Assembly (NCBI RefSeq): GCF_019226825.1
Contig: NZ_CP076643.1
Coordinates: forward strand, 1,178,001 to 1,242,000
Direction: 5' to 3'
Origin: Vibrio ostreae
GTDB taxonomy: Bacteria > Pseudomonadota > Gammaproteobacteria > Enterobacterales > Vibrionaceae
DNA: 64,000 bases
The notes under the pieces were generated by a model. It searched no databases and was not told the origin of the DNA. It saw nothing but the letters and a program-made list of their open reading frames with translations. Shown one piece after another: positions 1-16,718 of the stretch. Positions within the stretch are counted from its first letter, which is position 1. The number at the start of each line of letters is the position of its first letter. A program made the translations under genes and the position numbers.

Positions 1-685
1 TTTCACTGTAGTTTATTAAAGTGTTATCTTTGTGTTCGAATAAATACCAAAATTCATTATTGGTTTCTTTATACCATGAATGATCTGATAATTTTATAAT
101 ACTCTTTATAAGTAATATTTCACTATCGGATGAAAAGCTTTCAGATAAATAATCTAAATTTGCCACCCCACACCTACCAGGTAAGTTTTTTGCCTTTTTA
201 TAAATTGACTGTAAATTCTTTATTTGACTTTTTTTGACAACAATGAAATCCTCAAATAAAGAAAGCTTTTCCCTTGTCACTACTTCAAGGTGAGGCGTGT
301 AAATTTCTAGGTCATGATTAAAATCAAGGTCATCCATCATATTTAAGATGCCTTTAATATTACAATTACCTTTAACAAGATTTAACTCTTCTAATTTTTT
401 TTCAATCTCAGATTTCAACCAAAATTTCTTTGATGCAATTAGATTATATATTGTACTAAGTTCTGAGAATTTACTCTTATCAGCGATTTTTCTGAAATTG
501 TCATTTACAAGCTGCCTTACTCGTTCTCTTGTAATTTCACCAAATCTTTTTCCAGTTTCTTCAAGTGTTGGCCATTCAGAATCAGAGAAACCATAGAAGT
601 AATTTATCAATCTAATATTTCTGTCTTTGGCTTGAGTCTCTTTTAAATTTGTTTCTAGAAAATCAAGTAAACTATCTTCAATCAT
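1..685 (-). CDS. Partial cassette-borne protein with sigma-70 region-4-like helix-turn-helix
   Basis: The reading frame is open from an ATG at 685 to the left window edge (228 codons read, no stop), so the C-terminus lies outside. A GGAG ribosome-binding site lies about ten bases upstream of the ATG. Residues about 40-62 read TLEETGKRFGEITRERVRQL, which has the spacing of the sigma-70 region 4.2 recognition helix (LEEIGxxFGVTRERVRQI). The rest is lysine- and asparagine-rich, and near the edge (around residues 200-225) there are tryptophan-containing segments that could be a second small DNA-binding fold. The DNA is much more AT-rich than the genes to the right. It starts 28 bases past a GTTAGGC core on the same strand, as an integron cassette gene would. 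I infer a DNA-binding protein; it is too divergent and incomplete to call a sigma factor. Confidence 0.75.
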   Translation of the reverse strand, partial: MIEDSLLDFLETNLKETQAKDRNIRLINYFYGFSDSEWPTLEETGKRFGEITRERVRQLVNDNFRKIADKSKFSELSTIYNLIASKKFWLKSEIEKKLEELNLVKGNCNIKGILNMMDDLDFNHDLEIYTPHLEVVTREKLSLFEDFIVVKKSQIKNLQSIYKKAKNLPGRCGVANLDYLSESFSSDSEILLIKSIIKLSDHSWYKETNNEFWYLFEHKDNTLINYSE

Positions 686-713
686 ATTCTATTAACTCCA
701 ATGTTTGGGGAGC

Positions 714-720
714 GCCTAAC
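714..720 (-). other. Candidate integron recombination core (attI/cassette junction)
   Basis: On the minus strand this reads GTTAGGC, the GTTRRRY core at which integron integrases cut and at which the first cassette begins. The first leftward ORF starts 28 bases beyond it. On the other side lie an inverted-repeat block, a LexA box and an integrase-like ORF start, which is the standard integron order with cassettes and integrase divergent. A seven-base motif alone is weak; the context makes the call. The matching attC at the far end of the cassette would lie left of the window. Confidence 0.5.
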
Positions 721-729
721 AGTTCTTAG

Positions 730-866
730 ACAGACAATGTCTGTATTTTATTGTCTATCTATATTTGATGTACTTTTCCCATCACTTTCCTTTCACCATT
801 AGGGCGCCAGTATGAGAGAAGTAGGATTTTACGCTTTTGGGATCACAAAATACCGACATTGTCTGT
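730..866. repeat. 20-bp inverted repeat flanking the putative attI region
   Basis: Positions 730-749 (acagacaatgtctgtatttt) and 847-866 are inverted copies matching at 19 of 20 bases, about 97 bases apart. The left copy contains its own 15-base palindrome, acagaca-a-tgtctgt. Between them lies a second small inverted pair, gcgcctaa (712-719) and ttagggcgc (799-807). These could be integrase-binding repeats of an attI site or the termini of a small element; the sequence alone does not decide. Confidence 0.6.
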
Positions 867-897
867 TTAATCTATCCACAGGCATCACTTACAATAA

Positions 898-913
898 CTG
901 TGCATTTAAACAG
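898..913 (+). promoter_or_regulatory. LexA (SOS) box
   Basis: CTGTGCATTTAAACAG is a perfect CTGT-N8-ACAG match to the gammaproteobacterial LexA operator. It sits 14 bases before the ATG of the integrase-like remnant at 927. Integron integrase promoters in Vibrio are known to be LexA-repressed, so position and orientation fit. Confidence 0.6.
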
Positions 914-926
914 CATTGGTGTTTGT

Positions 927-1007
927 ATGAAATCGCCCTTTTTGACGAGTCTAAAAGAGTTCATGTTGGCTGAACAGTTTTTGACATTTGTCGTCTTTCA
1001 GGTGTGA
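927..1007 (+). pseudogene. Decayed integron integrase (IntI-like) N-terminus
   Basis: The 26-codon ORF begins MKSPFLTSLKEFM, which matches the characteristic start of vibrio IntI tyrosine recombinases as I remember it (MKSxFLxSxxEFM). It continues QFLTFVVFQ, which resembles a segment that lies about 40 residues further on in intact IntI (EEFLTYLAVQ), so an internal deletion is likely. A stop follows at 1005. Downstream to about 1390 I could find no convincing integrase motifs (no boxes with the catalytic Arg, His and Tyr residues) in any frame. The gene would be about 960 bp if whole, so it is dead. The homology is read by eye and needs a search. Confidence 0.5.
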
Positions 1008-1400
1008 AAAGCCCTTTATCTGCGTTGTTCTCTGAACCCTGAATTTCAGAAACGCTACCGCCATACCTTGTCGATAGCAAAGTCGATGAATGACAACAGA
1101 ATGCATAAGTTTATATCAAATTACCGACCTCATTCCTACGGCAATATCAAAGAAAAGGCAGTCGGCGTGATAATTTACGTTGGAGAATACTGCTAACAGA
1201 GGCGAACGCCAAAGGAGAAGGCTTAGATGAACCTGGCACTTTGCGTTTATGTATTATCGTTACCAACATCCGCTTGAGGTGGTTCCGACTCGAGTATGCC
1301 TGGATTGAAAAACCTCATTGATTCAGTCCCTTAAGCGTTTCTTAAGTTTCGTTGCGTAGCTTTGCTTAAAAGTTTTCATTAGATATTCAATGAGTTTGTT
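1008..1400. other. Non-coding stretch, probable integrase decay zone
   Basis: No ORF with a ribosome-binding site or a recognisable product lies here on either strand. In the frame of the integrase remnant a 62-codon open stretch (about 1008-1194) shows only very weak resemblance to IntI. I see no terminator or mobile-element end. Confidence 0.5.
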
Positions 1401-1994
1401 ATGGAATCCTTAAACCACTGGCTATTTCTGCTGATTAACCCCTCTCATCAACCCAGTCCTGCGCTGTTGCAAGTCGCAAAACTGTGTGCAGAACTGCCGG
1501 TTTTTCTCATCCCATTGTGCCTGGCGCTGCTCTGGATGCGCGATAAACACGCTAAAACGATGGCATTTAACGCCGGGTTAACGACCGTATTGGCGCTGGC
1601 GATAAACTATGCCATTTCACTTGTCTGGTATCACAACCGCCCGTTTGTCGATCATTTAGGCATCAAGCTGATCAGTCATGCCAGTGATTCTTCGTTTCCC
1701 AGTGATCACATCACTTTGTTCGCCAGTGTTGCTTTCTATCTGTCTTTCGAAAAATCCTTGCGCAAGTTAGGGCTGGTGCTTTTAGCCTTGTCGTTAAGCA
1801 CCGGATGGGCGCGGGTTTTCGTCGGCGTGCACTATCCTTTCGATATCTTGGGTGGATACCTGATTAGCGCGCTGACTGCATTGCTATTCAAGCAGTATTT
1901 AGCCACTCAGTTTGCAGGGTTGGTGAACTTGATGATTGAGTTAAGTGAGCACATCGCTGGCTGGTTGGTCAGAATGAAGAAGTCTGCTTTGTAA
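1401..1994 (+). CDS. PAP2-family membrane phosphatase (undecaprenyl-pyrophosphatase-like)
   Basis: This 197-residue protein has several hydrophobic segments and the type-2 phosphatidic-acid-phosphatase signatures. The last two motifs are clear: FPSDH (about residues 98-102) with the catalytic histidine, and WARVFVGVHYPFDILGG (about 136-152) with the second histidine and aspartate. The first motif is weaker (YHNRPF, about 73-78, without the usual upstream lysine). Size and motif set match BcrC/YbjG undecaprenyl-diphosphatases, which recycle the lipid carrier at the periplasmic face for peptidoglycan synthesis. Other PAP2 lipid phosphatases cannot be excluded. It stands alone, followed by a stem-loop and then the zinc GTPase gene. 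Confidence 0.8.
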   Translation: MESLNHWLFLLINPSHQPSPALLQVAKLCAELPVFLIPLCLALLWMRDKHAKTMAFNAGLTTVLALAINYAISLVWYHNRPFVDHLGIKLISHASDSSFPSDHITLFASVAFYLSFEKSLRKLGLVLLALSLSTGWARVFVGVHYPFDILGGYLISALTALLFKQYLATQFAGLVNLMIELSEHIAGWLVRMKKSAL

Positions 1995-2047
1995 GCTTAC
2001 CGCGCAAATACTAGCGGCTATTTTAAATTTATCGACACATCCCCCCA

Positions 2048-2080
2048 CAGGCTTTTGTTGTTCCTGACGGCAAAAGCCTG
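2048..2080 (+). terminator. Stem-loop after the PAP2 gene
   Basis: A perfect 10-bp stem (caggcttttg / caaaagcctg) with a 13-base loop lies 54 bases past the PAP2 stop. There is no clean T-run after it, so it is at best a weak intrinsic terminator or an mRNA 3' end. Confidence 0.45.
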
Positions 2081-2152
2081 CTCTTTCACCTGGTTTCAGA
2101 GTCTCTGCCCTTGATATCCAACCAGTTTAAGTTGCCAGACCCCGCGCAATAT

Positions 2153-2167
2153 TGTTATGTTGTAACA
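2153..2167 (+). promoter_or_regulatory. Candidate Zur operator
   Basis: TGTTATGTTGTAACA is a near-palindrome resembling the gammaproteobacterial Zur site (GTTAT-N4-ATAAC type, e.g. znuABC). It lies 64 bases before the start of a His-rich COG0523 GTPase, a family often under Zur control. Promoter elements around it are not obvious. Confidence 0.45.
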
Positions 2168-2230
2168 CTAAATCAGAATAACAACTTCGCATCGCTGTAA
2201 CTCAAGCCCTGGACGTGAGCAAAAATCACT

Positions 2231-3268
2231 ATGAATGAACAAGCAAACACTATCCCGACCAATATCATCACCGGATTTCTTGGGGTCGGAAAAACCACCA
2301 CCATCAATGCGCTGCTGGCGAAAAAGCCGCAAGGTGAATCTTGGGCTGTGCTGGTCAATGAATTTGGTCAGGTAGGGATTGACCAGGAGATGATGCCGAC
2401 CGAAGAGGGTTTGCATATTAAAGAGTTAGCCGGTGGCTGCATTTGTTGTTCACTTGGCGCGTCGCTGGGTCAGACTGTGCGAGCTTTAATCGAACACGCC
2501 AATCCTGATCGTCTGATCATTGAACCGACCGGTATCGGCCACCCGGAAGGTATCATCGACACACTGATGGGACCGGGGTTTAAAAACGTGCTGGATCTGC
2601 GCGCTACGGTTTGCCTGCTCGACCCGCGCTGTCTGGCGCAGGAAGAAGTCCTCAGCAATCCGATTTTCCACGATCAGCTTAACCTGGCCGATGTGGTTCT
2701 GATCAACAAGTGCGATTTGGCAGAAGAGCAGCAAATTGAATTGGCAGAAAGTAGCTTAGGGAATATGTTTCCGCCGAAACAGCATCTGGGCCGGACAATT
2801 CGCGGCAGGATTGAACCTGCTCTGCTCGATCTGGTACGCAATGGTCAGCTCAAAGCGCACTTCCCGGATGCTCATGCTCACAGTCATGATCATGAACACG
2901 AACTTCATGACCATCACCACGAGCACGCCCACGAACATCGTCATGAGACTGTTCCTGAACCGGGTAAACCGGTGCGTAAAACCGGTCACGGCAGCGGTTT
3001 ATACAGCTGCGGCTGGCTGTTCCACCGCGACGATTGCTTTGACTACTGGGCGCTGGAAGAGATATTAACCGGACTGACCGATGTGCAACGTATCAAAGGG
3101 GTGATCCGCATCGGTAACGCCTGGGTCTTCTTTAACCGGGTTAATGACGAGCACGACTTCGATAAAGTCGCCTATCGCCGCGACAGCCGTATCGAAATCA
3201 TCACTACCCGGGAATTAGACTGGCAGCAGATCGAGCGCGCTATGTTGGCGTGCCAGATTAAAGGTTAA
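2231..3268 (+). CDS. COG0523 (CobW/ZagA-type) GTPase with His-rich metal loop
   Basis: This 345-residue protein is a G3E-family P-loop GTPase. It has a Walker A GFLGVGKTT near residue 15-24, the diagnostic metal-binding GGCICC motif near residue 67-72, and NKCD as the guanine-specificity motif near 159-162. Around residues 215-240 lies a stretch almost entirely of His, Asp and Glu, typical of zinc storage or delivery members. A CobW C-terminal domain follows. The family inserts or delivers metals (zinc, cobalt) into client proteins in the cytoplasm. The Zur-like box upstream points to a zinc-limitation metallochaperone, which is inference. It lacks neighbours that would identify its client. 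Confidence 0.85.
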   Translation: MNEQANTIPTNIITGFLGVGKTTTINALLAKKPQGESWAVLVNEFGQVGIDQEMMPTEEGLHIKELAGGCICCSLGASLGQTVRALIEHANPDRLIIEPTGIGHPEGIIDTLMGPGFKNVLDLRATVCLLDPRCLAQEEVLSNPIFHDQLNLADVVLINKCDLAEEQQIELAESSLGNMFPPKQHLGRTIRGRIEPALLDLVRNGQLKAHFPDAHAHSHDHEHELHDHHHEHAHEHRHETVPEPGKPVRKTGHGSGLYSCGWLFHRDDCFDYWALEEILTGLTDVQRIKGVIRIGNAWVFFNRVNDEHDFDKVAYRRDSRIEIITTRELDWQQIERAMLACQIKG

Positions 3269-3421
3269 GCGCCACCCAGCGCGTCCTGAACGCGCTGGGC
3301 CTCTGAATTAGTGTCAAAAGTAATAATAAGATAACGACTGTTTACCTATCATTGACACAAATCCGCCACCAAGCGGCTAGGCTTCGCGACAGATATTTCT
3401 GAGTGAAACCTGTACCTGCCC

Positions 3422-5764
3422 ATGCCTAGAAGACGTTCATCTCTACCGATCAAATCCCCTTGGTTACGCCGCATCACGCAACTTGTTTGCGCGCTGACGG
3501 TTGTGTTGGTTTTGGCCGCGATTTATACCGGAATTCAATTTAACAACCTGGTTAAAGATAAGTTTGAAGGTCAGATGTGGCAGTTGCCAAATGTAGTCTA
3601 TGCCCGTCCGCTGATCCTGAGTCCCGATAGTCCGGTCAGCCAGCAAATCGTACTCAAAGAATTGGCCGAATTACACTATCGTCAAGTGGCCAATCCGGTC
3701 AGCAGCGGTGAATACAGTGTCTCGGGGCGAACTGTCCGTCTGATTCGCCGCCCGTTTGTCTTTCCAGATGGTGAACAACCCGCGGTGCAGGTCAAGATTC
3801 GCTTTGCCGGACAAGGGGTAGCTTCCATGAGCGATGAAGCCAGCGGTCATCCAATCGGCCTGCTGTCGCTTGAGCCGAGAATCCTTGGCATGCTGGACGA
3901 CGATAACACGGAAAAACGTCTCTATATGGCAAAAGACGATATGCCCGAGACACTGGTCGCCGCACTGCTGGCCACCGAAGATCGTGATTTCTATCAGCAT
4001 GATGGCATCTCACCTCTGGCTATCGCTCGCGCATTTATGGCGAATATCAGCGCCGGACATAATGTGCAGGGCGGCAGTACCCTCACCCAGCAACTGGCCA
4101 AAAATCTGTTTCTGTCGCGTGAGCGCAGCCTGACCCGAAAAGTCAAAGAAGCTTATCTCGCGCTTATTATGGATTATCGTTACAGCAAAGATCAGTTGCT
4201 GGATGCGTATCTTAACCAGGTCTATCTGGGCCAGAACGGCAATGATTCCATTCATGGTTTTGCCCTCGCTGCACGCCATTATTTTGCCCTGCCCCTTTCT
4301 GAACTGCGCCTGGATCAGCAAGCTTTGTTAGTAGGGATGGTCAAAGGACCTTCATATTATAACCCGTGGCGCTATCCGGAGCGCGCCAAAGCGCGCCGCA
4401 ACCTGGTACTGAAAATGATGGTCGAAACCGGTTCACTCGAAACCGATGATTACCAGCGTGCCATCGACAAGCCACTCTCTCTGCGAGCACAGGGCAACGA
4501 AAATGCACTGCAACCGGCCTATTTTGATTATGTGAAACAATCACTGCAGGAACACGGCATCGACTATAACAGCGGGCGCGGTCTGCGTCTGTTTACAACC
4601 TTTGATCCTGATATCCAGCAGCATGCTGAGCAGTCGGTGTATAACATCATGCCTCAACTGGAGAAAAAAACCGGCCAGTCGCTGGAAACCGCAATGATTA
4701 TTGCCGACAAACACAGCGGTGCAGTCAGTGCGATGATTGGCAGCCGTAACCCGACCTACCACGGTTTTAACCGCGCCTTACACGCCGAACGTCAGATTGG
4801 ATCGTTGATTAAACCGGCGGTGTATTTGACTGCGCTATCGCAGCCACAGGTTTACACTCTGGCTACTCCGTTATCAGACCGACCGATCAGTATTCGTAGC
4901 GAAAATGATGAGCTATGGTCACCACGCAATTATGACCGTCAATATCGTGGTCAGGTTGCCCTTTATCAGGCACTGGCCCACTCTTACAACGTTCCGACTG
5001 TGAACCTCGGCATGGCTCTCGGCCTGGGGCGGGTCACTCAGACCCTGAGCGCCCTGGGGATCGATTCGCAGCAGGTGCCACAACTGCCTTCGATGCTGCT
5101 TGGTGCTGTGACGCTGACACCGCTTGAAGTCACTCAGATGTATCGGACCCTGGGGAATCAGGGGAAACGACAGACGTTATATGCCTTAAGCGCGGTGCTG
5201 GATGAGCATGGCAGTGTTCTGTATCGTTATCAGCCTGACGGTGAGCAAACGGTGGATGAGCGTGCCGCCTGGCTGACCGAATACGCCATGACACAGGTCG
5301 TCGAGCAAGGTACGGCGCGCTATCTGAAGACTATTGTCCCTTCGCGCACACAGCTGGCAGGAAAAACCGGCACCTCAGATCAGGGGCGTGACAGTTGGTA
5401 TGCCGGCATTGATGACAGCCAGGTGGTCACCGTCTGGGTCGGGCGCGATGACAACCAAGCCGTGAATCTGACTGGTTCGAGTGGTCCGCTGCGAATTTAC
5501 GCCGATTTCTTAAAACGCAACGGTTACCGTTCTTTGGACACGCCGCAACCCGATCAAATTGAATTTGCCGACTACCGCTCAGATGCAAATGGCTTCCTGC
5601 AGCGCAGCTGTCTTGGCCAGATAAACCTGCCAGTGTGGAACATCTCCGGCGAGTCGCAAGATGATTGCTTAACACCGCTGGAAGATGGCCTCAACGATCT
5701 AGGTAACGAAATCAACGAAGCCGGTCGCCAGATTGGCGGATTCCTGAGAAGTTTATTTAATTAA
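3422..5764 (+). CDS. mrcB: Penicillin-binding protein 1b, bifunctional peptidoglycan synthase
   Basis: This class A PBP (780 residues) polymerises lipid II and cross-links the strands in the periplasm. It has a short basic N-terminus, one membrane anchor (about residues 18-38), the UB2H-like region, and a GT51 domain with catalytic Glu186 in LATEDRDF and the GGSTLTQQLAKN motif. The transpeptidase domain has the active-site Ser461 in SLIK, the SYN triad (521-523) and KTGT (648-651). Length and order match PBP1b rather than PBP1a. No outer-membrane activator gene (lpoB) is next to it. A strong bidirectional terminator follows. Confidence 0.95.
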   Translation: MPRRRSSLPIKSPWLRRITQLVCALTVVLVLAAIYTGIQFNNLVKDKFEGQMWQLPNVVYARPLILSPDSPVSQQIVLKELAELHYRQVANPVSSGEYSVSGRTVRLIRRPFVFPDGEQPAVQVKIRFAGQGVASMSDEASGHPIGLLSLEPRILGMLDDDNTEKRLYMAKDDMPETLVAALLATEDRDFYQHDGISPLAIARAFMANISAGHNVQGGSTLTQQLAKNLFLSRERSLTRKVKEAYLALIMDYRYSKDQLLDAYLNQVYLGQNGNDSIHGFALAARHYFALPLSELRLDQQALLVGMVKGPSYYNPWRYPERAKARRNLVLKMMVETGSLETDDYQRAIDKPLSLRAQGNENALQPAYFDYVKQSLQEHGIDYNSGRGLRLFTTFDPDIQQHAEQSVYNIMPQLEKKTGQSLETAMIIADKHSGAVSAMIGSRNPTYHGFNRALHAERQIGSLIKPAVYLTALSQPQVYTLATPLSDRPISIRSENDELWSPRNYDRQYRGQVALYQALAHSYNVPTVNLGMALGLGRVTQTLSALGIDSQQVPQLPSMLLGAVTLTPLEVTQMYRTLGNQGKRQTLYALSAVLDEHGSVLYRYQPDGEQTVDERAAWLTEYAMTQVVEQGTARYLKTIVPSRTQLAGKTGTSDQGRDSWYAGIDDSQVVTVWVGRDDNQAVNLTGSSGPLRIYADFLKRNGYRSLDTPQPDQIEFADYRSDANGFLQRSCLGQINLPVWNISGESQDDCLTPLEDGLNDLGNEINEAGRQIGGFLRSLFN

Positions 5765-5784
5765 TTTTTTAAGTCTTATAGAGC

Positions 5785-5820
5785 AGCGGGCGATCTAAGA
5801 AACTTAGCCGCCCGCTTTTT
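5785..5820. terminator. Bidirectional terminator between mrcB and the porin gene
   Basis: An 8-bp GC-rich stem (agcgggcg / cgcccgct) has an inner ctaag/cttag pairing, with a T-run after it on the plus strand and A-rich sequence before it. It separates two convergent genes. Confidence 0.85.
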
Positions 5821-5868
5821 AAGGGTTAAAATAGAACGTTCAAACTGATAAACCCTGCTTAAACATGA

Positions 5869-7110
5869 TTACCACCAGGCTTCAATTTGTACACCATAGT
5901 TAATCGTGTCATCACTTTTACCACTATTGAATGTGTTGCCGTTTTCGTTGTCTTTAAAATAGCTTGCGTAGAAGCGAATCTCTGGTCGAGCGAAGAAGTC
6001 CTCACCGGTAGACAGCGCGTGGGCGATGGTAAATTTAGTCCCGCCAGATTTTTCACTCACGCCTGAATCCCAGGTTTTCTCTTGATCAAAGTAGCCAACT
6101 TCTAACATTGTTTTGTTATAAGATGACCAGCTATAAGTCGGGCGGGCGACAAAAGAGAACATTTCTTCTTTATCCAGCCAATCACCATGGTCCTGAGCTT
6201 TACCATAAGTCAGAACATGATTGATAACGATACTGTCACTGAGCTTCAAATCACCAGTACTGATAAAACGAAAAGCCTTTGCATCGCTGACATCACCGCT
6301 CCAGTAATCATACCAACCACCACCTTGCGAAATGGCATTCTGTGCTAAACCACTCGTCATATATTGCATAACAAACTTGTTATACCCTAATGAAAAACTC
6401 TGACTTAACTCGGCGGTCACCATTAGACCATCGTCAAAATCTTCTGTCGCGGCTTCCTGTTCGTCAGTTGGATTGACGATTGCATAGTCAACACCGACTT
6501 CTGTCCATGCACCTTCCCAAGGACTAAATCCAGCGTAGCGTAAATCCATGTAGTAGGTATTAAGCTCGCCTGTTGTGTCATCAACATCACTATCCGCTCG
6601 TACCACAGCTGCTGATATCGCTCCCGAGGTTAACTTAATATTTTCAATACCGACACCGTAACCAGAAATGTTCCAGTATTTAGTATCGATAATATGCAGA
6701 TCGTGACGCTGATAAAAACGCTTACCAGCCCAAATAACGGCCTCAGGGGATGCCGGTATATAACCTTTCGCCTGAATATTGAGCTGCTTAATGGCAAAGT
6801 TAGCGCTATCGTCTTTTGTCGACTCAGATTCAAGATTACCATCTGATGACATTTCAAACATACTTTCAAAATACATTGAATGTCCATCCTGATTGAATAA
6901 CTCCTGACCCAGACCTATCTCAGAATAGGTATCGTATTCGTTACCCAGGCGACCCAGTTTAGTTTTGTTAAATTCATCGCCTCCTTCCGTGCCACCGCCA
7001 TCAGCACTTGCTCCGAGCCCGGCGCGAACGTAACCATAAAAATCTACCGCCGAAACTTGTGTTGCCATCAATGATGCGAGTATTGCGACGGTCAGCGTTG
7101 TCTTCTTCAT
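5869..7110 (-). CDS. LamB-type maltoporin-family outer-membrane channel for galacto-oligosaccharides
   Basis: I place the start at the ATG at 7110, behind AAGGAATTCAC, rather than further upstream, because it opens a clean signal peptide (about 21 residues, ending VSA). The mature protein begins VDFYGYVRAG, the LamB signature, and ends with the W-W terminal strand pattern expected of outer-membrane barrels. The 413-residue length fits an 18-stranded sugar porin. It is the last gene of the galactanase operon, so the likely cargo is beta-1,4-galacto-oligosaccharides. The 143-base gap before it carries a stem-loop (7153-7180), which may uncouple its level from the upstream genes. Confidence 0.85.
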   Translation of the reverse strand: MKKTTLTVAILASLMATQVSAVDFYGYVRAGLGASADGGGTEGGDEFNKTKLGRLGNEYDTYSEIGLGQELFNQDGHSMYFESMFEMSSDGNLESESTKDDSANFAIKQLNIQAKGYIPASPEAVIWAGKRFYQRHDLHIIDTKYWNISGYGVGIENIKLTSGAISAAVVRADSDVDDTTGELNTYYMDLRYAGFSPWEGAWTEVGVDYAIVNPTDEQEAATEDFDDGLMVTAELSQSFSLGYNKFVMQYMTSGLAQNAISQGGGWYDYWSGDVSDAKAFRFISTGDLKLSDSIVINHVLTYGKAQDHGDWLDKEEMFSFVARPTYSWSSYNKTMLEVGYFDQEKTWDSGVSEKSGGTKFTIAHALSTGEDFFARPEIRFYASYFKDNENGNTFNSGKSDDTINYGVQIEAWW

Positions 7111-7152
7111 TGTGAATTCCTTTTGTTTTAATAAATGGTTATTGGTGGAAAA

Positions 7153-7180
7153 TATTGCCCGCGCAGATATTCGGGCAATA
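7153..7180 (-). other. Intercistronic stem-loop between ganA and the porin gene
   Basis: A perfect 9-bp stem (tattgcccg / cgggcaata) with a 10-base loop has no T-run after it. It is likely an mRNA processing or stability element, or a partial terminator, between the glycosidase and porin cistrons. Confidence 0.5.
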
Positions 7181-7253
7181 CTCATCCCAGAGAAAATAAT
7201 TTCTCTTATTCTTTTTATTAGGTTTACCAGCCTTAAATTTAGGGCTGATATTA

Positions 7254-9323
7254 TTACAGGTTTAACTTATTTACTATTGTCACAACTTGATATGGGCTTA
7301 TTTTTATCTCCCCACATAAATTATTATTGTCTTGGTCAATCCATTCACCATCAGGACAATTAAACCAACGGACTTCATTACAAAAGTTCATAATAAACAA
7401 GTAACGATTGGCATCGTCTTGCCTTAAACTGATGGAAAGGCCATACGGAACGTTATCAACCAGCGGTTTAATATCAGACAACCTAACGAGTTGTTGATAA
7501 AACTGGCTATTGAAGCCATGTTCGGTTCTAGCGGCGATATAATAGCTGCACCCTTTGCCATAGGTGTTTCGTGTAACCACCGGTTTACCTTCAAACATAT
7601 CTGATCTGTAGCATGCCAGAGCTTGCGCGGTTTCCAGGTGAATGTGTTCCATCAAGTGCTTTGCTTCAAACTCACCCTCTAAAGGAAATTCAGCTGTTGA
7701 TGTCATAGCAAATTCTACCCGCTCATGATCATACATAGAGTCAATCTCTTCAGCCCAGATCCCAAGCACCTCTCGTAACGGACTATTCTCACCGCCAGGA
7801 AAACCACCCAGGAAACAAAGATCGTTTTCATCAACAATGCCGCTCCAATAGGTGGCAACGAGAATGCCGCCATTTTCAACAAATGCTTTTAAACGTTCCG
7901 CTACCCCGGGTTTAACCAGATATAGCATTGGCGCGACCACAATTTTATAAGGGGTAAAGTCACTCAGTTGCTCAATGATGTCGCAATTAATTCCCTGTTC
8001 CCAGAATCCACGATAGTGATCACAAACGGTTTGTTCATAATGCATACCTTGGTTACGTGGCCCAGAAGCATCATCCAATGCCCAGCGATTTTCCCAGTCA
8101 AAAATAATGGCAACATCCGAATTGATTTGAGATCCCGCCACTGAACGTATCTGCTTGAGATACTCTCCTAGCGCTGTAACTTCTCGGCCTGTGCGCGTAT
8201 CAGCGTGACCGACATGGTCGATGACCGCACCATGAAATTTTTCCACTGAACCACGGCTTTTTCGCCATTGAAAATATTGAACCGAGTCTGAACCATGAGC
8301 GATTGCCTGTAATGAAGACAGCAAATGCACACCATCTCGTTTTAACTTAGTAATCGGTTGCCAGTTAGTTTGACTTGGTGTCGATTCCATCAGCAGGAAC
8401 GGCTGCTGTTTCAACGTGCGCATAAGATCGTGATACATCGCCGTATAACAGGCCAATGCCACTTCATCATGGTCCCGATGCCACAACGGATAACTATCCC
8501 AGGAGATAACGTCGATAGCTTTAGCTAATTGCCAATAGTTATAGTCGTAGAAATATTCCATAAAGTTTGCAGTCGTCGGCAACTCAGGATTGATGGCCTT
8601 CAACGGGGTAATCTCGTGCTGACAGAAATTAACCACTCGATCAGTACAGAAACGCTTCCAATCCAGCTTTAATCCATGAACTGAATTCTCACCGATTGGC
8701 GACGGGGACTCAATTTGCTCCCAGTCACTATAGGTATGGCTCCAAAATGAGCTCCACCAACGCTTATTAAGGTTTTCTAAAGTATGATATTTATCCTGTA
8801 ACCAAAGCCGAAATTCTTGCTGGCAATAGTGGCAGTGACAATCACCACCATACTCATTTGATACATGCCATCCGATAACTGCTGGGTGATGACTATATCG
8901 TTCAGCCAGTTTCGTATTAATGGCTGTGACTTTAGCGCGATAGTTCGGTGAACTGTAACAATGGTTATGTCGCTCTCCATGTAACTGTTTCACTCGTTGA
9001 CTATTGACGCGTAGAACGTCGGGATAACGTTGTGATAACCAAGCCGGACGTGCACCACTCGGCGTTGCCAGGAAAACAGAAATATCGTGCTGCGCTAAGC
9101 TATCCAGTACCTGATCGAGCCATTCAAAGTGAAACTCACCTTCCGATGGCTCAAGTGCAGACCAACTGAATATGCCTACTGACATGACATTACATTTCGT
9201 TTGCTTCATTAACTCGATATCCTTTTCGAGGATATCTGGTCGGTCTAACCACTGTTCCGGGTTATAATCTGCTCCATGGAGCAGTCCTTTCATCTTGGGA
9301 ATAACCAATTTCTTGCTTTTCAT
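7254..9323 (-). CDS. ganA: GH42 beta-galactosidase
   Basis: This 689-residue protein has no signal peptide, so it is cytoplasmic. The N-terminal TIM barrel carries the GH42 acid/base Glu157 in SNEYGG and the nucleophile Glu313 in LMESTPS. A cysteine cluster (C122, C162, C164, C167) matches the zinc site of GH42 enzymes. A Rossmann-like trimerisation domain follows (about residues 400-600), then a small C-terminal beta domain. It would split imported beta-1,4-galacto-oligosaccharides to galactose. Its ATG overlaps the stop of the galactanase gene by one base (TAATG), so translation is coupled. The naming follows the Bacillus subtilis ganSPQAB order, which this operon repeats. Confidence 0.9.
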   Translation of the reverse strand: MKSKKLVIPKMKGLLHGADYNPEQWLDRPDILEKDIELMKQTKCNVMSVGIFSWSALEPSEGEFHFEWLDQVLDSLAQHDISVFLATPSGARPAWLSQRYPDVLRVNSQRVKQLHGERHNHCYSSPNYRAKVTAINTKLAERYSHHPAVIGWHVSNEYGGDCHCHYCQQEFRLWLQDKYHTLENLNKRWWSSFWSHTYSDWEQIESPSPIGENSVHGLKLDWKRFCTDRVVNFCQHEITPLKAINPELPTTANFMEYFYDYNYWQLAKAIDVISWDSYPLWHRDHDEVALACYTAMYHDLMRTLKQQPFLLMESTPSQTNWQPITKLKRDGVHLLSSLQAIAHGSDSVQYFQWRKSRGSVEKFHGAVIDHVGHADTRTGREVTALGEYLKQIRSVAGSQINSDVAIIFDWENRWALDDASGPRNQGMHYEQTVCDHYRGFWEQGINCDIIEQLSDFTPYKIVVAPMLYLVKPGVAERLKAFVENGGILVATYWSGIVDENDLCFLGGFPGGENSPLREVLGIWAEEIDSMYDHERVEFAMTSTAEFPLEGEFEAKHLMEHIHLETAQALACYRSDMFEGKPVVTRNTYGKGCSYYIAARTEHGFNSQFYQQLVRLSDIKPLVDNVPYGLSISLRQDDANRYLFIMNFCNEVRWFNCPDGEWIDQDNNNLCGEIKISPYQVVTIVNKLNL

Positions 9324-10555
9324 TACTTACCTTTAAATACGTTTAATGATGGCAAAGCATTACCTTCAAAGTTAAACAACGCTTGGTTCTCCCATGAATT
9401 ACCAATATCCCAAGAGTCACCGCTATAATCCATTCCAGCCTTCGTTGACCAAGTTGCCCCATTGATAGGTAACCAGGCAGGTTCCCAGTAATAGATACCC
9501 AACCCTTTGTTCTCAGGTAAAGAATTAACTAGTTTCATAATGTCGGATAAATATTGAGCCTGACCTTCAACACTGACGTCATATCCGTCGATTGGCCCTG
9601 ACTCAGAGTAACTGTTAGATAATCCGTCACCATTTTCGCTGGTAAACGGAAATGCAGTTTCAACGATAATCACGGGTTTATGATAGCGATTGATAACATC
9701 CGTCATATTGGCTTTAACTTTAGAAATAGGCCCGTGCCACCACGGATAATAAGACATGCCTATGACGTCAAACTCAACATTGCGCTTGGTAATTTCATCA
9801 AACCACCAACGAAATAAACCGTTATCTCCCGCTTCCGCCAGGTGTAGCATGACCTTAATCTCTTGGCCGGCGCTATTCTCACGTACGGCTCTAATTCCCG
9901 ATGTTAGCAGCACTGAAAGTCGGTCGAATTCATGCCCATCCTGTCCCCAACTTTTTCCATCCGGCCAAAGCATTCCACCATTAAGTTCATTACCAACCTG
10001 AACCATATCCGGAATTACACCGGCGCTGATATGGGCCTGCATAACTTCCGACGTGTACTGATAAACTTTGCTACTCAGTTGTTCAAAATTAAGACTATCC
10101 CAGGATTTAGGCTTTTTTTGTTTTTTAGGATCAGACCAAAAATCGCTGTAATGAATATCCAGCAGGAAGCTCATCCCTAAAGCTTTGGCTCTCTGGCCCA
10201 GTTCAATCGAACGCTGCAAAGTGTTATTACCACCTCCGTATTGGATGCCCTTTTCAGATTCAGGATTCACCCATACTCTGGCTCGAATTGAGTTGACTCC
10301 ATGTTCCTTCAAGATTTTAAGTAAATCTTCCTGATGGCCGTTTTCGAAGTACTTTCCCCCCAGTAACTCAATTTCTGGTAACATCGAGATATCCATACCC
10401 TTAATAAAATCATCTCTCAGTTTAGGAGCGCTGATAGAAATATCTTCATTGATCAATCCTACCTTTGCAGTGTTTGACTTAATTTGGCTGGAAGACTGAC
10501 AGCCAGCAATAGCCAGTACTGCACCAATTAATGCAATTCTAAATTTAGTATCCAT
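9323..10555 (-). CDS. ganB: GH53 endo-beta-1,4-galactanase, lipoprotein
   Basis: The N-terminus is a lipoprotein signal with lipobox AIAGC (Cys19), so the enzyme is membrane-anchored, probably at the outer membrane. The GH53 TIM barrel shows KGMDISMLPE early, the acid/base Glu190 in QVGNELNGG and the nucleophile Glu299 in IVETAFP. It would cut arabinogalactan type I side chains into oligosaccharides for import. At 410 residues it is full length. A second, soluble GH53 at 16719 shares only the fold and active-site motifs. The gene sits between the permease genes and ganA. Confidence 0.92.
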   Translation of the reverse strand: MDTKFRIALIGAVLAIAGCQSSSQIKSNTAKVGLINEDISISAPKLRDDFIKGMDISMLPEIELLGGKYFENGHQEDLLKILKEHGVNSIRARVWVNPESEKGIQYGGGNNTLQRSIELGQRAKALGMSFLLDIHYSDFWSDPKKQKKPKSWDSLNFEQLSSKVYQYTSEVMQAHISAGVIPDMVQVGNELNGGMLWPDGKSWGQDGHEFDRLSVLLTSGIRAVRENSAGQEIKVMLHLAEAGDNGLFRWWFDEITKRNVEFDVIGMSYYPWWHGPISKVKANMTDVINRYHKPVIIVETAFPFTSENGDGLSNSYSESGPIDGYDVSVEGQAQYLSDIMKLVNSLPENKGLGIYYWEPAWLPINGATWSTKAGMDYSGDSWDIGNSWENQALFNFEGNALPSLNVFKGK

Positions 10556-10571
10556 ATCGTTCTCTCTGAAA

Positions 10572-11415
10572 TTAGCCTTTCGTACTACCAGCGGTTAAAC
10601 CTGATACGAAATATTTTTGTAGTGATAAATAAAGCAATGCAACGGGAATAGAAATAATTACAGCACCTGCAGCATAAGTGGTATAACTAGCTCCCATTTT
10701 TTCAACCACAAGGTTATATAATCCAATAGGAAGGGTGTAATTTTCTGGAGTTCTTAATATTGTCGTTGCAAGAATAAAATCCCCCCAAAGGTCCCGTGAA
10801 AGAGAATAATGCTACTACTGCTATAATTGGCTTGGAAATTGGTAATATTATTTCAATAAAGATCCTTATATTACTTGCCCCATCCATCTTTGCTGATTCA
10901 TCCAGATCAATAGGGATAGCATCCAGGTAGCCTTTCATTAAGTACGTATTCATAGGTATCATTCCGCCAACGTAAACTAAGACTAAAGCCAGATGGCTAT
11001 TGATTAGCCCCAACATCTGAGCAAGTACAAAAATAGCAATCAAAGCGGAAAACTGTGGAATCATCTGAAGTAAAAGAAACAACATCAGACCATTTTTTCT
11101 ACCTCTGAAGCGAAATCGAGAAAACGCATAGGAAGTACAAGACACACTAAACAATGTCAACACCATGGTTAAGAAACTGATTTTCATGCTATTCCAAAAC
11201 CAAGTTAAATAAGCAACTTTGTCATTAGCAAAAAGAGTTGCATAATGACTCCAGGTCGGTTTATCAGGAAAAATTGATTCACCCATAATACTGTTACCCG
11301 GATAAAAAGAAGCCCCAACCGTCCAGATAAGTGGATAAATTATAATAATAGAAACAATTAGAATCAGAGAATAACTTAGTGCCAATCGAATTCGATTACG
11401 ACGTTTAATACTCAT
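10572..11415 (-). pseudogene. ganQ: MalG/GanQ-type ABC sugar permease, frameshifted
   Basis: The N-terminal 220 residues are a normal MalG-type inner-membrane permease, with the EAA loop SAKMDGASNIRIF and ILPISKP. At a run of six C (10781-10786; six G in the coding strand) the frame breaks after FTGPLG and stops at 10714. In the other frame the protein continues exactly as the family should: DFILATTIL, PENYTLPIGLY and VSGLTAGSTKG, stopping at 10572. Five G would give an uninterrupted 280-residue permease. The rest shows no decay. It is either a recent or phase-variable frameshift, slippage, or a sequencing error. Without it the importer would lack one half of its channel. Confidence 0.88.
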
Positions 11416-11418
11416 AAA

Positions 11419-12726
11419 CTATCTTGCCTCTTCTTTGAATGAGTTCGTCATACGGAACTGCCACAGAGCTATCCCTACTACAAATATTGATAATAATAAA
11501 GTGATGGCAGAGGCAATACTGTATTGAGATGATGACATCGTCAGTTTATAAATCCACGACACCAAGATATCCGTTCCTCCTGCATTACCCCCGATTACCG
11601 CAGGACCACCATTATTAAAAAGATAAATAATATTAAAGTTGTTAAAATTGAATGTGTACTGAGTAATAAGAATAGGTGCAATTGAGTAGAAAACTAATGG
11701 TAATGTTATTGTCCTTAATTGCTGAATCTTACTTGCACCATCCATAGTGGCGGCTTCATATAAATCATCCGGTATCGCTTGTAGTACACCAGTCGTCATT
11801 GCAAATACAAATGGAAAACCTAACCACGTTTGAATCAAAATTAACGCAACTTTAGTCCAGAAAGGATCGGTTAACCAAGCTTTTGGCTCGATACCAAAAA
11901 AATCCAAAATGACATTATTAATGACGCCAAAGCTATCGTTGAACATACCGGTAAATATAAGAATGGTAACAAAGCCAGGCACTGCCCATGGCAAAATAAA
12001 TATTGTTCTAACTAACGGTTTAAACTTAAGATCTTTCTGATTGACCAAAACCGCCAAAAGTACTCCCACGGCACACTGTAAGGTCGAGGCCAACAGCGTC
12101 CAGACTATCGTCCATTGCAAGACATCGAAAAATGTATTTCTCCAGAGATTTATCTGAAAAATATTAAAAAAATTCTTGAGACCGACCCAATCTACCAACT
12201 TTGCTGGCGGCGAGTTATATAAATTATAATTTGTAAATCCAATAGCAAAACCAAAAATGATCGGGAATACAACAACAAAAACAAGCAGTATAAATCCGGG
12301 ACTTATCATCAAATACGGAAATCCTGCATTTATAACATTCCGGTATTGAATACGAATTGAATTAAGCGGTCGGCCTTCATCAATTCTTAAGCCATTTTTA
12401 TACGCATCAAAGAAACTCAATCCGTAAAGTGTCAACCCAAATAACAACACTAATAGTGCGATAACACCTTTTGCTAATAGAAAGACAGAATTGTCCTCAG
12501 GTAAGTTTTCCCCTAGTGTGGTAATCCCCCACATTCCATGCAAAATAAATTCTCGGCTAACACCATAAAAGCTCATCAAAAGCACAAAGAACAGTAATCC
12601 CTTGGCAAACTGGCGGTTATAAAACTGCCCCATACCAGGTATCAAAGCGCAAAGCATGGCCATAAACCTCTGGGAACGGTAGAAGCCTACTCCAGGTTCT
12701 ATGTGTCCACTCATATCAGACATCAC
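11419..12726 (-). CDS. ganP: MalF/GanP-type ABC sugar permease
   Basis: This inner-membrane permease (435 residues) has the extra N-terminal membrane region of the MalF/GanP subgroup and about eight hydrophobic segments. The EAA loop near residues 335-355 reads YEAATMDGASKIQQLRTITL and contacts the ATPase. It would pair with the MalG-like partner that starts three bases after its stop. The partner gene is frameshifted, so channel function depends on that defect. A GC-rich stem-loop lies between it and the binding-protein gene, as is common where the binding protein must be made in excess. Confidence 0.9.
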   Translation of the reverse strand: MMSDMSGHIEPGVGFYRSQRFMAMLCALIPGMGQFYNRQFAKGLLFFVLLMSFYGVSREFILHGMWGITTLGENLPEDNSVFLLAKGVIALLVLLFGLTLYGLSFFDAYKNGLRIDEGRPLNSIRIQYRNVINAGFPYLMISPGFILLVFVVVFPIIFGFAIGFTNYNLYNSPPAKLVDWVGLKNFFNIFQINLWRNTFFDVLQWTIVWTLLASTLQCAVGVLLAVLVNQKDLKFKPLVRTIFILPWAVPGFVTILIFTGMFNDSFGVINNVILDFFGIEPKAWLTDPFWTKVALILIQTWLGFPFVFAMTTGVLQAIPDDLYEAATMDGASKIQQLRTITLPLVFYSIAPILITQYTFNFNNFNIIYLFNNGGPAVIGGNAGGTDILVSWIYKLTMSSSQYSIASAITLLLSIFVVGIALWQFRMTNSFKEEAR

Positions 12727-12760
12727 TTACAACTCCTTACAAGAGACCATCATGTTAATG

Positions 12761-12786
12761 TCCCCCGCGAAAATAAAAACGGGGGA
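12761..12786 (-). other. Stem-loop after the binding-protein gene
   Basis: A perfect 7-bp stem (tcccccg / cggggga) with an A-rich 12-base loop lies between ganS and ganP. By analogy with malE-malF type gaps it probably protects the upstream mRNA or partly terminates, raising binding protein over permease. No T-run follows. Confidence 0.5.
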
Positions 12787-12815
12787 GACGACCAATACAT
12801 AGTAATCTCAATCGA

Positions 12816-14054
12816 TTATTGGCCCATCATTGCGTGGTTTGCCTCGATTTGCATATTGATACTAGCAACCGCCGCATCTAATGCACTTTTCGGATCTTGT
12901 TTATTAGTTGCAATGAGTTGTAATGCGCTATTAGCCGGCCCCCAAACCTCATTCATTTCAGGAATAGATGGCATAGAGGTTGAATAGATAGATTGCATAG
13001 CCACAGCTCGTGCACCAGGATCATTTTTAATCACAGGATCATCGATGAGAGCCTTTACAGCAGGAACCTCACCGGTCAATTCAAAACGGCGTTTGGCATT
13101 ATTATAATTGTTGATGAATTCGATAAATTCTTGAGCCAGAGGTTTATTCTGAGAGAAAGTAGAAATGCTGTAGCTTTTCACTCCCATGAATGCGCCCATA
13201 TGTTTACCTGAAGGCAGTTTGGGTAGTGGGGCTACACCATAATTAATGCCCGCTTCTTTATATGGCTGAAGTGACCATGGACCTGTCTGTACAATTGCAG
13301 CTTTACTTGAAGTAAACAACGAATCGATGGCATTTAGGCCATTATTTCCAACAATACCTGCCGGAAATACTTTTGACTGATAAAACTTCTGGATATATTT
13401 AGCACCTTCGATTGCCCCTGACTCGTTGAGCAATACTTTATTTGAGTTATAAGACCCATCTTCTTTCTTGGCGAAGACATCACCACCCATACCACTGAGG
13501 ATCCCATAGGTATAATAAAGCTCATCCCATTTCGCCAATAGGCCATATTTACCTTCTGCCCGGAAACTCTTGGAAAGTTCGTATATTTCATCCAGTGTTT
13601 CAGGCAATTTATCAATCATATCTTTGTTGTAAACCATAAACAGTGTTTCCACTGATTTTGGTAAACCATACAGTACACCATTATAAGTTAACGCCTCTAT
13701 CGAAGACTCACTGAATGTATCCACTACGTTTTCACTTTCAGTAATTGGCGCGAGCAAACCCTGTATCACGGCACCGCCAATCTGGTCATGTGGAATAAGT
13801 ATTACGTCCGGACCAGTGCCAGCCGGTCCATCCATTCGGAGAGATTCGACTTGCCCACCGTAAGGCATTTCAACGACATTAATTTTGACATCATGTTCTT
13901 TTTCAAACGCTGCAACGGCTTCTTCATTACCAAAGGATTTTTGAATATCTTCCCAAACCAATAGCGATTGCTGTGCGAAGGTTAATGGTGAACAAAACAG
14001 GGCAACAGTGGCAGAAATAAGATTTATTTTTTTACTAAATTTTTTACTATCCAT
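12816..14054 (-). CDS. ganS: Periplasmic galacto-oligosaccharide-binding protein (MalE/GanS-like)
   Basis: This family-1 extracellular solute-binding protein (412 residues) has a basic start, a hydrophobic core and a probable cleavage after LTFA. The mature protein begins with a beta strand (LLVWEDIQ) and has the MalE-like segments PDVILIPHDQIGG and QTGPWSLQPY. It is the first gene of the leftward operon and diverges from the ATPase gene, with a CRP site between. Operon context makes beta-1,4-galacto-oligosaccharides the likely ligand; the ligand pocket itself cannot be read from sequence. Confidence 0.9.
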   Translation of the reverse strand: MDSKKFSKKINLISATVALFCSPLTFAQQSLLVWEDIQKSFGNEEAVAAFEKEHDVKINVVEMPYGGQVESLRMDGPAGTGPDVILIPHDQIGGAVIQGLLAPITESENVVDTFSESSIEALTYNGVLYGLPKSVETLFMVYNKDMIDKLPETLDEIYELSKSFRAEGKYGLLAKWDELYYTYGILSGMGGDVFAKKEDGSYNSNKVLLNESGAIEGAKYIQKFYQSKVFPAGIVGNNGLNAIDSLFTSSKAAIVQTGPWSLQPYKEAGINYGVAPLPKLPSGKHMGAFMGVKSYSISTFSQNKPLAQEFIEFINNYNNAKRRFELTGEVPAVKALIDDPVIKNDPGARAVAMQSIYSTSMPSIPEMNEVWGPANSALQLIATNKQDPKSALDAAVASINMQIEANHAMMGQ

Positions 14055-14148
14055 GAAAAATCACACCTTATTTTTATTAGCAGAAATAAAATTTATGGTG
14101 CAAATATGCTGTATTGTGTTATTTTTTCCTACAAAGGTTATCTACAGA

Positions 14149-14164
14149 TGTGATTTAAATCACT
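14149..14164. promoter_or_regulatory. CRP-cAMP site in the divergent gan promoter region
   Basis: TGTGATTTAAATCACT matches the CRP consensus TGTGA-N6-TCACA in nine of ten core bases. It is placed between the divergent ganS and ATPase genes, so it could activate both. An A+T-rich motif (aaataaaattta) occurs twice nearby (about 14086 and 14203) and might be part of a regulator operator, but I cannot define it. Confidence 0.7.
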
Positions 14165-14276
14165 GTATGTAGTAAAGATTGTGATAACCCAAACATGTAT
14201 AAATAAAATTTACTAAATAACAAAGAATCTGATCACAGCGATTACTAAAATTTTATCTGATAATAAGGAAAACAAA

Positions 14277-15380
14277 ATGTCTTCTATTCTGCTATCTAAC
14301 GTAGTTAAGCGCTTCGGTGACAATCAAACTATCCATGATGTCAATTTGTCTATTGAAGAAGGTGAATTTGTTGTGTTTGTCGGCCCATCAGGCTGTGGTA
14401 AGTCAACATTATTAAGAATGATCGCGGGCCTGGAAGATATCAGTGATGGTACCATTTCTATTGCGGGAAATATTGTCAATGACACGCCACCTTCTGAACG
14501 TGGTGTGGCGATGGTCTTCCAATCTTATGCTCTATATCCCCATATGACCGTAGCCGAAAATATGGGTTACTCGTTAAAAGTGAATAAGGTGCCAAAACCT
14601 GAGCGTCAGTCAAAGGTCAAGTTAGTCAGTAAAGCATTGCAACTGGAACATCTACTCGATAGAAAACCCGCCCAACTATCGGGAGGCCAACGTCAGCGCG
14701 TTGCCATTGGCCGCGCGATTGTCCGAGATCCTAAGGTGTTTCTGTTTGATGAACCTCTTTCTAACCTTGATGCTGAATTACGTGTCGACATGCGTCTGCA
14801 TATAGCAAAATTGCATCAGGACTTACGCTCAACCATGGTTTACGTTACCCATGACCAAGTAGAGGCAATGACTCTCGCCGATAAAATCGTGGTATTGAGA
14901 GACGGAAAAGTAGAACAAGTTGGCTCACCAATGAACCTTTACCAACACCCAAAAAACAAATTCGTTGCGGGTTTTATTGGCTCTCCAAAAATGAACTTCA
15001 TTGATTGCAAGGTCGAACATTGGGATGAATTAAGCTTAACCGTGAAACCTCATGTGGGGGATTCATTAACACTACCGATAAAAACTGAATCTTTGCAAAT
15101 CGGTACAAGCTTAACCATCGGGATTCGCCCGGAACACCTTTCCACAGAGCTGAATATTGTTAAATTAAACTTCCAATGCGAAGTCATTGAACGACTTGGT
15201 GGCATGACTTATGTCTTCGGTCAATGTGGTGGTATAGACGATTTCAAATACCTTCAGCATGGTGATACTCTAGTTAGACCGGGTGATATTATGCCTTTGT
15301 TTGCATCTCCATCAGCATTGCATCTGTTTGAAGCCAGCGGAGAAGCTATCAATTTTACTCAGGTTGATTCCTTACACTAG
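14277..15380 (+). CDS. MalK/MsmX-type ABC transporter ATPase for galacto-oligosaccharides
   Basis: This 367-residue ATPase has Walker A GPSGCGKST (about 38-46), the Q-loop FQSYALYPH, the signature LSGGQRQR (about 134-141), Walker B VFLFDEPLSNLD and the H-loop THD. A C-terminal TOBE/MalK-type regulatory domain follows from about residue 240. It would power the GanSPQ permease. It is transcribed away from ganS, sharing the CRP-containing intergenic region, and the regulator gene follows it. Bacillus subtilis uses a distant shared ATPase (MsmX) for the same pathway, whereas here the ATPase is local. Confidence 0.92.
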   Translation: MSSILLSNVVKRFGDNQTIHDVNLSIEEGEFVVFVGPSGCGKSTLLRMIAGLEDISDGTISIAGNIVNDTPPSERGVAMVFQSYALYPHMTVAENMGYSLKVNKVPKPERQSKVKLVSKALQLEHLLDRKPAQLSGGQRQRVAIGRAIVRDPKVFLFDEPLSNLDAELRVDMRLHIAKLHQDLRSTMVYVTHDQVEAMTLADKIVVLRDGKVEQVGSPMNLYQHPKNKFVAGFIGSPKMNFIDCKVEHWDELSLTVKPHVGDSLTLPIKTESLQIGTSLTIGIRPEHLSTELNIVKLNFQCEVIERLGGMTYVFGQCGGIDDFKYLQHGDTLVRPGDIMPLFASPSALHLFEASGEAINFTQVDSLH

Positions 15381-15405
15381 TTGGATATTCAAACCATTAA
15401 GTTTC

Positions 15406-15434
15406 GGCCAAAGAATGTTGCGAATCCTTTGGCC
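15406..15434 (+). other. Stem-loop between the ATPase and regulator genes
   Basis: An 8-bp perfect stem (ggccaaag / ctttggcc) with a 13-base loop and no T-run lies 25 bases after the ATPase stop and just before the regulator's ribosome-binding site. It may lower read-through to the regulator. Confidence 0.4.
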
Positions 15435-15468
15435 TAGTCAGTTTAGATACGATAAGAAGGCTATTATT

Positions 15469-16476: not shown

Positions 16477-16718
16477 ATATTATCTTCGCCTTGGTTAATA
16501 GGACTAAAATCAAGGCATCCCATCCTCAACTGTATGATGCCGTATAACATTTAATTAGGTAAATTTTAATAAAACCTGGATCAACTATCACAAACTAAAC
16601 ATTAATTCATTATTCACATCTTACTAATAATCCTAGTCAGGTTTATTTTCTTACATTAGTTGCTAGGTTTTAAATGATATTAACCCAATATCAATTTTAT
16701 AAATCACAAGGCAAAAAT

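Follow-up and report, generated by a model that had tools for sequence, protein, structure and literature searches.

A probable vibrio integron platform in decay, with intI reduced to its two ends beside a LexA box and an attI-like region

At the left end of the window (the whole stretch of 64 kb analysed here), an AT-rich ORF, an attI-like region, a LexA box and two pieces of an integrase gene precede a stretch without recognisable gene and a PAP2 gene, in the following arrangement:

2..685, minus strand: presumed first gene cassette, an ORF of at least 228 aa running off the window edge (ORF call; sigma-70 region-4-like N-terminal domain)
714..720, minus strand: GTTAGGC recombination core (attI/cassette junction), read from the sequence, 28 bases before the cassette ATG and aligned with the core region of comparator L124
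726..749, no strand: left arm of an inverted repeat, containing the near-palindrome ACAGACAATGTCTGT (730-744) (repeat search, alignment)
847..870, no strand: right arm of the inverted repeat (repeat search, alignment)
898..913, plus strand: LexA (SOS) box CTGTGCATTTAAACAG, a perfect CTGTN8ACAG, 13 bases before the intI start
927..965, plus strand: intI 5′ remnant, residues 1-13 (profile match and tblastn), in a frame of 26 aa running to a stop at 1005-1007
966..991, plus strand: deletion junction zone, 26 bases versus about 885 in intact intI (arithmetic from the two remnants)
992..1042, plus strand: intI 3′ remnant, RLSGVKSPLSAL followed by FSEP and a stop (1040-1042), in a frame different from that of the 5′ remnant (C-terminal profile)
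1043..1400, no strand: 358 bases without recognisable gene or RNA (Pfam, NCBIfam and Rfam scans)
1401..1994, plus strand: gene for a PAP2-family undecaprenyl-diphosphatase, flanking the platform on its intI side (domain and protein match)

The 13 N-terminal residues of a vibrio-type IntI, MKSPFLTSLKEFM, are encoded at 927-965. Position profiles were derived from 112 of 120 listed IntI proteins, chosen for a length of 317-330 aa and an initial M, and the profile of residues 1-13 gave 32.7 bits at 927, the runner-up among 127,924 placements in the window reaching 8.3. Controls stayed at or below 10.9 bits in 15 first-order Markov windows and at or below 17.9 in 400 shuffles of 901-1200. A preliminary description of this DNA had proposed an IntI-like N-terminus here, to be checked by alignment of 900-1400 with vibrio IntI; the match at 927-965 indeed exceeds every control, and with V. 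cholerae IntIA as tblastn query against 686-1420 the top match is again residues 1-13 at 927-965 (9/13 identical, E 0.006 on this small target). The frame translates as MKSPFLTSLKEFMLAEQFLTFVVFQV and terminates after 26 codons.

A second remnant, absent from that description, corresponds to the IntI C-terminus at 992-1042. The C-terminal profile (residues 309-320) scored 20.3 bits at 992-1027, the best of 127,930 placements, followed by 15.0; 15 simulated windows gave 10.1 to 19.6, and none of 400 shuffles of 901-1200 went beyond 14.2. With one simulated window at 19.6, this putative 3′ remnant is borderline when taken alone in 64 kb. The tied-second tblastn match of V. cholerae IntIA comprises residues 311-320 at 998-1027, in the other frame (8/10 identical, E 0.20). 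At the DNA level, alignment with four intact intI 3′ ends was not significant, the scores being reached by 48, 65, 109 and 113 of 500 shuffles, so that the case for the 3′ remnant is built on the protein profile.

Because the 3′ end survives, the lost part can be bounded. The 3′ remnant starts at residue 309, or at 304 if a weaker VFD match is counted; about the first 13 and the last 12 codons are kept, codons 14 to about 308 are absent, and the net loss amounts by arithmetic to about 859 bases (~0.86 kb). A single deletion of this size would have removed the middle of intI. An internal deletion and a stop in the intI start had been claimed before, and both are correct, as is the claim of a dead integrase. 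The catalytic tyrosine 302 falls in the lost part. Since there are two ends only, mutually out of frame, the catalytic part is gone and the gene can no longer yield an integrase. The vibrio-type intI gene is thus present as a remnant only (residues 1-13 and 309-320), a pseudogene in the sense of IntI homology interrupted by a stop, frameshift or major deletion, and a functional integrase with its catalytic residues is not found here. A 10-base repeat in two copies, at the core (718-727) and in the junction (973-982), was considered as a route of the deletion and dropped as likely chance.

The perfect LexA box is placed in the intI promoter (898-913). The preliminary description had recognised the box; its distance to the ATG is 13 bases rather than the 14 given there. 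The motif CTGTN8ACAG occurs once in the 64 kb for 0.83 expected, and at least once in 61 of 100 shuffles, so the count alone is not significant and it is the position before intI that matters. Among five comparators, a LexA box starts at most 45 bases from the intI start in four (L121, L122, L128 and L129, of which L121 and L122 are near-identical in this region); in the fifth, L124, no perfect box was found near the intI start.

Upstream of the box, the plus strand reads GCCTAAC at 714-720, which is the GTTAGGC core announced in the preliminary description; attI cores follow the motif GTTRRRY. The inverted repeat described there as 20 bp is also present, with a length of 24 bp, and matches at 22 of 24 positions when 30 shuffles of 686-926 gave 13-16. 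Compared with L124, upstream of an intact intI, the attI region scores 53, a value reached by 2 of 300 shuffles, with common blocks including TAACTCC, TAACAG and TTAGACAG. Against L128, L122, L121 and L129 the scores were reached by 61, 142, 97 and 13 of 300 shuffles, respectively; among the five comparators, the region resembles L124 only. Core, inverted repeat, LexA box and intI start follow each other in the order and orientation that had been called standard for a vibrio integron, and by sequence the predicted LexA box and the attI-like region with its GTTAGGC core are in the right places.

One may ask whether the peptide match, the LexA box and the core are merely unrelated coincidences. 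A LexA box alone is expected in 64 kb, and so, by arithmetic, is a 7-base core. The N-terminal match stands above every control, however, and the elements, from the core through the LexA box to the two ends of intI, keep the expected order within 329 bases. We regard coincidence as extremely improbable.

The leftward ORF, 685..2 on the minus strand, starts 28 bases past the GTTAGGC core and agrees with the AT-rich leftward gene noticed before: the GC content of 1-685 is 28.6%, compared to 49.7% for 18260-64000. A search of its 228 visible residues at E ≤ 1e-3 retained none of 461 candidates as a relative, a result weakened by the truncation of the query at the window edge. Residues 13-77 match RpoD_Cterm (E 1.1e-7, far below the model's whole-protein cut-off), and Pfam Sigma70_r4 is matched with E 0.0025, below cut-off. 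A weak similarity to MzaA is confined to the sigma part, the remainder of the protein being without match. A snoJ33 hit of Rfam inside the ORF (E 0.037, below cut-off) was taken as chance. It is plausible that this ORF is the first cassette, in which case attC would be expected at its end, beyond the window. It would then be the last cassette inserted at attI.

On the intI side, the PAP2 protein shares 95% identity with a protein named Vibrio sp. CDRSL-10 TSBA and 60% with one of V. fluvialis, which assigns the window to a Vibrio; the genes which follow encode a CobW-type GTPase and PBP1b. Between intI and PAP2, four frames in and around 1043-1400 (1032-1193, 1068-1193 and 1109-1318 on the plus strand, 951-1106 on the minus strand) were scanned, and 1043-1400 gave nothing above cut-off in Pfam and NCBIfam; matches of 1032-1193 to Ran-binding (E 0.026) and TrbM (E 0.18) were taken as chance. 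Further along, 5869-17717 forms a block of lower GC (0.41-0.44) near the platform. It contains a LamB-type maltoporin and, by eye from the translations, beta-galactosidase-like, galactanase-like and sugar ABC transporter genes.

The platform is not located beside rplT-rpmI-infC-thrS: these four genes were looked for in the window and none was found (best E 0.04). By comparison, rplT lies 71-81 bases past the intI stop in three of the four comparators with intact intI, L128, L135 and L136 (the last two both V. anguillarum), the exception being L124. Three origins are conceivable: relocation of the integron, a rearrangement of the neighbouring chromosome, or the presence of a second platform. 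According to one alternative, a main integron whose intI is intact would sit elsewhere beside rplT, and the locus described here would be a displaced or secondary copy, a rearranged or duplicated platform end with an attI still served in trans by that enzyme. The missing neighbours speak for such a copy, but a rearrangement beside a sole integron would look alike, and we hold this alternative possible though rather unlikely. Searches for a related locus were made at several levels. No PAP2 relative was found in viral contigs. In genome contigs, the best 80 of 276 relatives of the PAP2 flank were at most 46% identical, with none titled Vibrio and no syntenic locus among the matches listed. Among 394 genomes from the order of genome G001, neither the protein search nor a search with the DNA of 686-5764 placed a syntenic locus among the matches listed, the best-scoring DNA match being 72% over 455 bases of PBP1b.

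The atypical flank would also suit the remnant of a mobile integron, carried by a plasmid or transposon, that landed here instead of a sedentary chromosomal one. L124, whose attI region is the most similar, likewise has no rplT in its available stretch, and its second ORF, judged by eye, resembles a phage-type integrase. Against a mobile origin, the N-terminus fits the IntI panel, of which the named members are nearly all Vibrio, no transposase or relaxase match was obtained among the window ORFs scanned, and the DNA of 686-1400 has no match in the plasmid collection. When 1-6000 was compared with phages and plasmids, the four phage records and the 20 plasmid records listed of 27 matched only at positions of at least 2252, and not in the platform. 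Terminal repeats were searched within 640-1400 only. On balance, we judge a mobile origin distinctly improbable.

The 5′ match at 32.7 bits, the 3′ remnant, the setting of the LexA box, the likeness of the attI region to L124 and the AT-rich ORF without relatives together favour a vibrio integron platform in decay, in which intI was gutted but its LexA box stayed behind together with an attI-like region. This reading is very probably correct, even if it is weakened by the borderline 3′ remnant, by an attI likeness restricted to L124, by the failure of L124 to show a perfect LexA box, by the absence of any attC from the window, and by the flank. The intact-looking attI side and LexA box suggest that the loss was recent or that there was too little time to decay. 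An SOS signal could at most lead to a transcript for a 26-residue peptide. Cassettes would neither enter nor leave by means of the locus's own enzyme, and an array to the left, if any, would be frozen unless an IntI acts on it in trans. Should that array be intact, it would offer a natural case in which cassette turnover with and without integrase can be compared.

The platform shares with sedentary Vibrio chromosomal integrons (V. cholerae IntIA/attIA; L128, L135, L136) the succession of presumed cassette, core, attI-like region, LexA box and start of intI, as well as the N-terminus of a Vibrio-type IntI. It differs from them in that only both ends of intI remain and that the flank is PAP2/CobW/PBP1b, not rplT-rpmI-infC-thrS. 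In V. cholerae, according to the available part of PMC3948777, the integrase promoter is LexA-controlled and a cassette promoter lies upstream of attI. The platform also resembles the intI pseudogenes and pseudo-integrons treated in the accessible sections of PMC2426708 and PMC3108266, with an inactivated integrase and a LexA site that may be kept. As excerpted, PMC2426708 counts almost one third of intI genes as pseudogenes, and only 4% in vibrios. In the portion of PMC3108266 at hand, 43% of 1,135 intI homologs are predicted inactive, events above 100 bp being left out; loss of LexA control correlates with intI inactivation, with named exceptions, and for class 5 integrons 44% of mapped integrases seem functional while LexA regulation is predicted in 89%. 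Unlike the pseudogenes of that survey, which took events up to 100 bp only, the present one carries a deletion of ~0.86 kb. CALIN, a term used in the available text of PMC9892861 for clusters of attC sites lacking an integrase, are comparable insofar as the presumed cassettes here would have no working integrase of their own; in contrast to CALIN, an attI-like region, a LexA box and intI ends remain.

That a LexA box outlived its intI had been called notable in the preliminary description. The box is indeed kept beside a dead intI, but a dead intI with its LexA box is already known from what is available of PMC2426708 and PMC3108266; what sets this locus apart is the large size of its deletion, along with its flank. 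Among decayed integron platforms it is a clear case, though a rather ordinary one. Its value comes from the loss of the integrase by a large deletion, with landing site and SOS switch kept, in vibrios, where the available part of PMC2426708 makes intI pseudogenes rare, and from a deletion larger than those taken into account, as far as PMC3108266 is available, by its SOS survey of intI genes.

A side observation concerns phages in intI. Of eleven distinct viral contigs with a match to IntI queries, ten at 57-100% identity were retained, with short matches in L127 (22 residues) and L125 (75); L126, at 25% identity, was set aside. In eight of the ten, the intI frame is normal up to TTQIYT (residue 303) and continues with another tail; in L130 the switch occurs about three codons before that site, and in L124 intI is intact. 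The sites are:

Interrupted intI (intI frame switch): L121:1104, L122:4842, L123:892, L125:207, L127:50, L132:6892, L133:1544, L134:892
Other prophage ends (TTQIYT core): L137:9262, L142:10124

Phage tail or tape-measure genes are present in L121, L122, L125 and L131 and a Rha-type phage regulator in L130; the proteins scanned in L123 and L127 gave no clear phage match, and the scan left out L132 to L134. Both ends are visible in one contig, which has the interrupted intI at the beginning (L125) and, at the other extremity, TTQIYT running into a normal intI C-terminus (L131, L137). The two core copies of this contig differ at third codon positions only; it seems, then, that the phage brings these codons along in a version of its own and provides a new C-terminus. 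The integrase of this contig combines Arm-DNA-bind_2 and Phage_integrase domains and is found in eight contigs at 93-100% identity (counting this one); among the 68 loci, identity then falls to 42-43%. Four of these eight have an interrupted intI, one more (L142) terminates at this core, and the other three show no intI in the available stretches. The phage-tailed IntI remains 320 aa long in four of the six contigs that include the beginning of the gene (L122, L123, L133, L134), with 309 aa in L121 and 314 in L132. The 120 listed IntI proteins comprise 7 with the phage-type tail, 111 with the usual one and 2 with another. From these sequence comparisons, prophages appear to be integrated in vibrio intI at the TTQIYT codons that surround the catalytic tyrosine, another tail taking the place of the last 17 residues. 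Among the papers listed in our literature search, no title or abstract start describes phage insertion in intI; PMC9345347 was considered, and in its available part the elements sit elsewhere.

The putative 3′ remnant picks up at residue 304-309, shortly beyond the phage site (residues 302-303), which raises the idea that a prophage once sat in this intI near the catalytic-tyrosine codons and was later lost with nearly all of the gene, the last codons being its scar. No TTQIYT core is seen between the two remnants, so this route stays speculation, and we consider it very unlikely.

Two comparators call for a remark. In L135 (MK672805, 1-4939) and L136 (MK672802, 4001-8211), an intact intI is followed by rplT, rpmI, infC and thrS. 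The available part of PMC9892861 lists both accessions as V. anguillarum phage records carrying intIA, and the intI stretch has the appearance of host chromosome enclosed by wrongly placed prophage borders; they were used here solely as intact comparators. Finally, the Aliivibrio salmonicida plasmid pRVS1-224 (L129, 3874-5959) carries an unannotated intI, matched in two pieces and 58.5% identical to V. cholerae IntIA, which adjoins a predicted dfrA1 gene.
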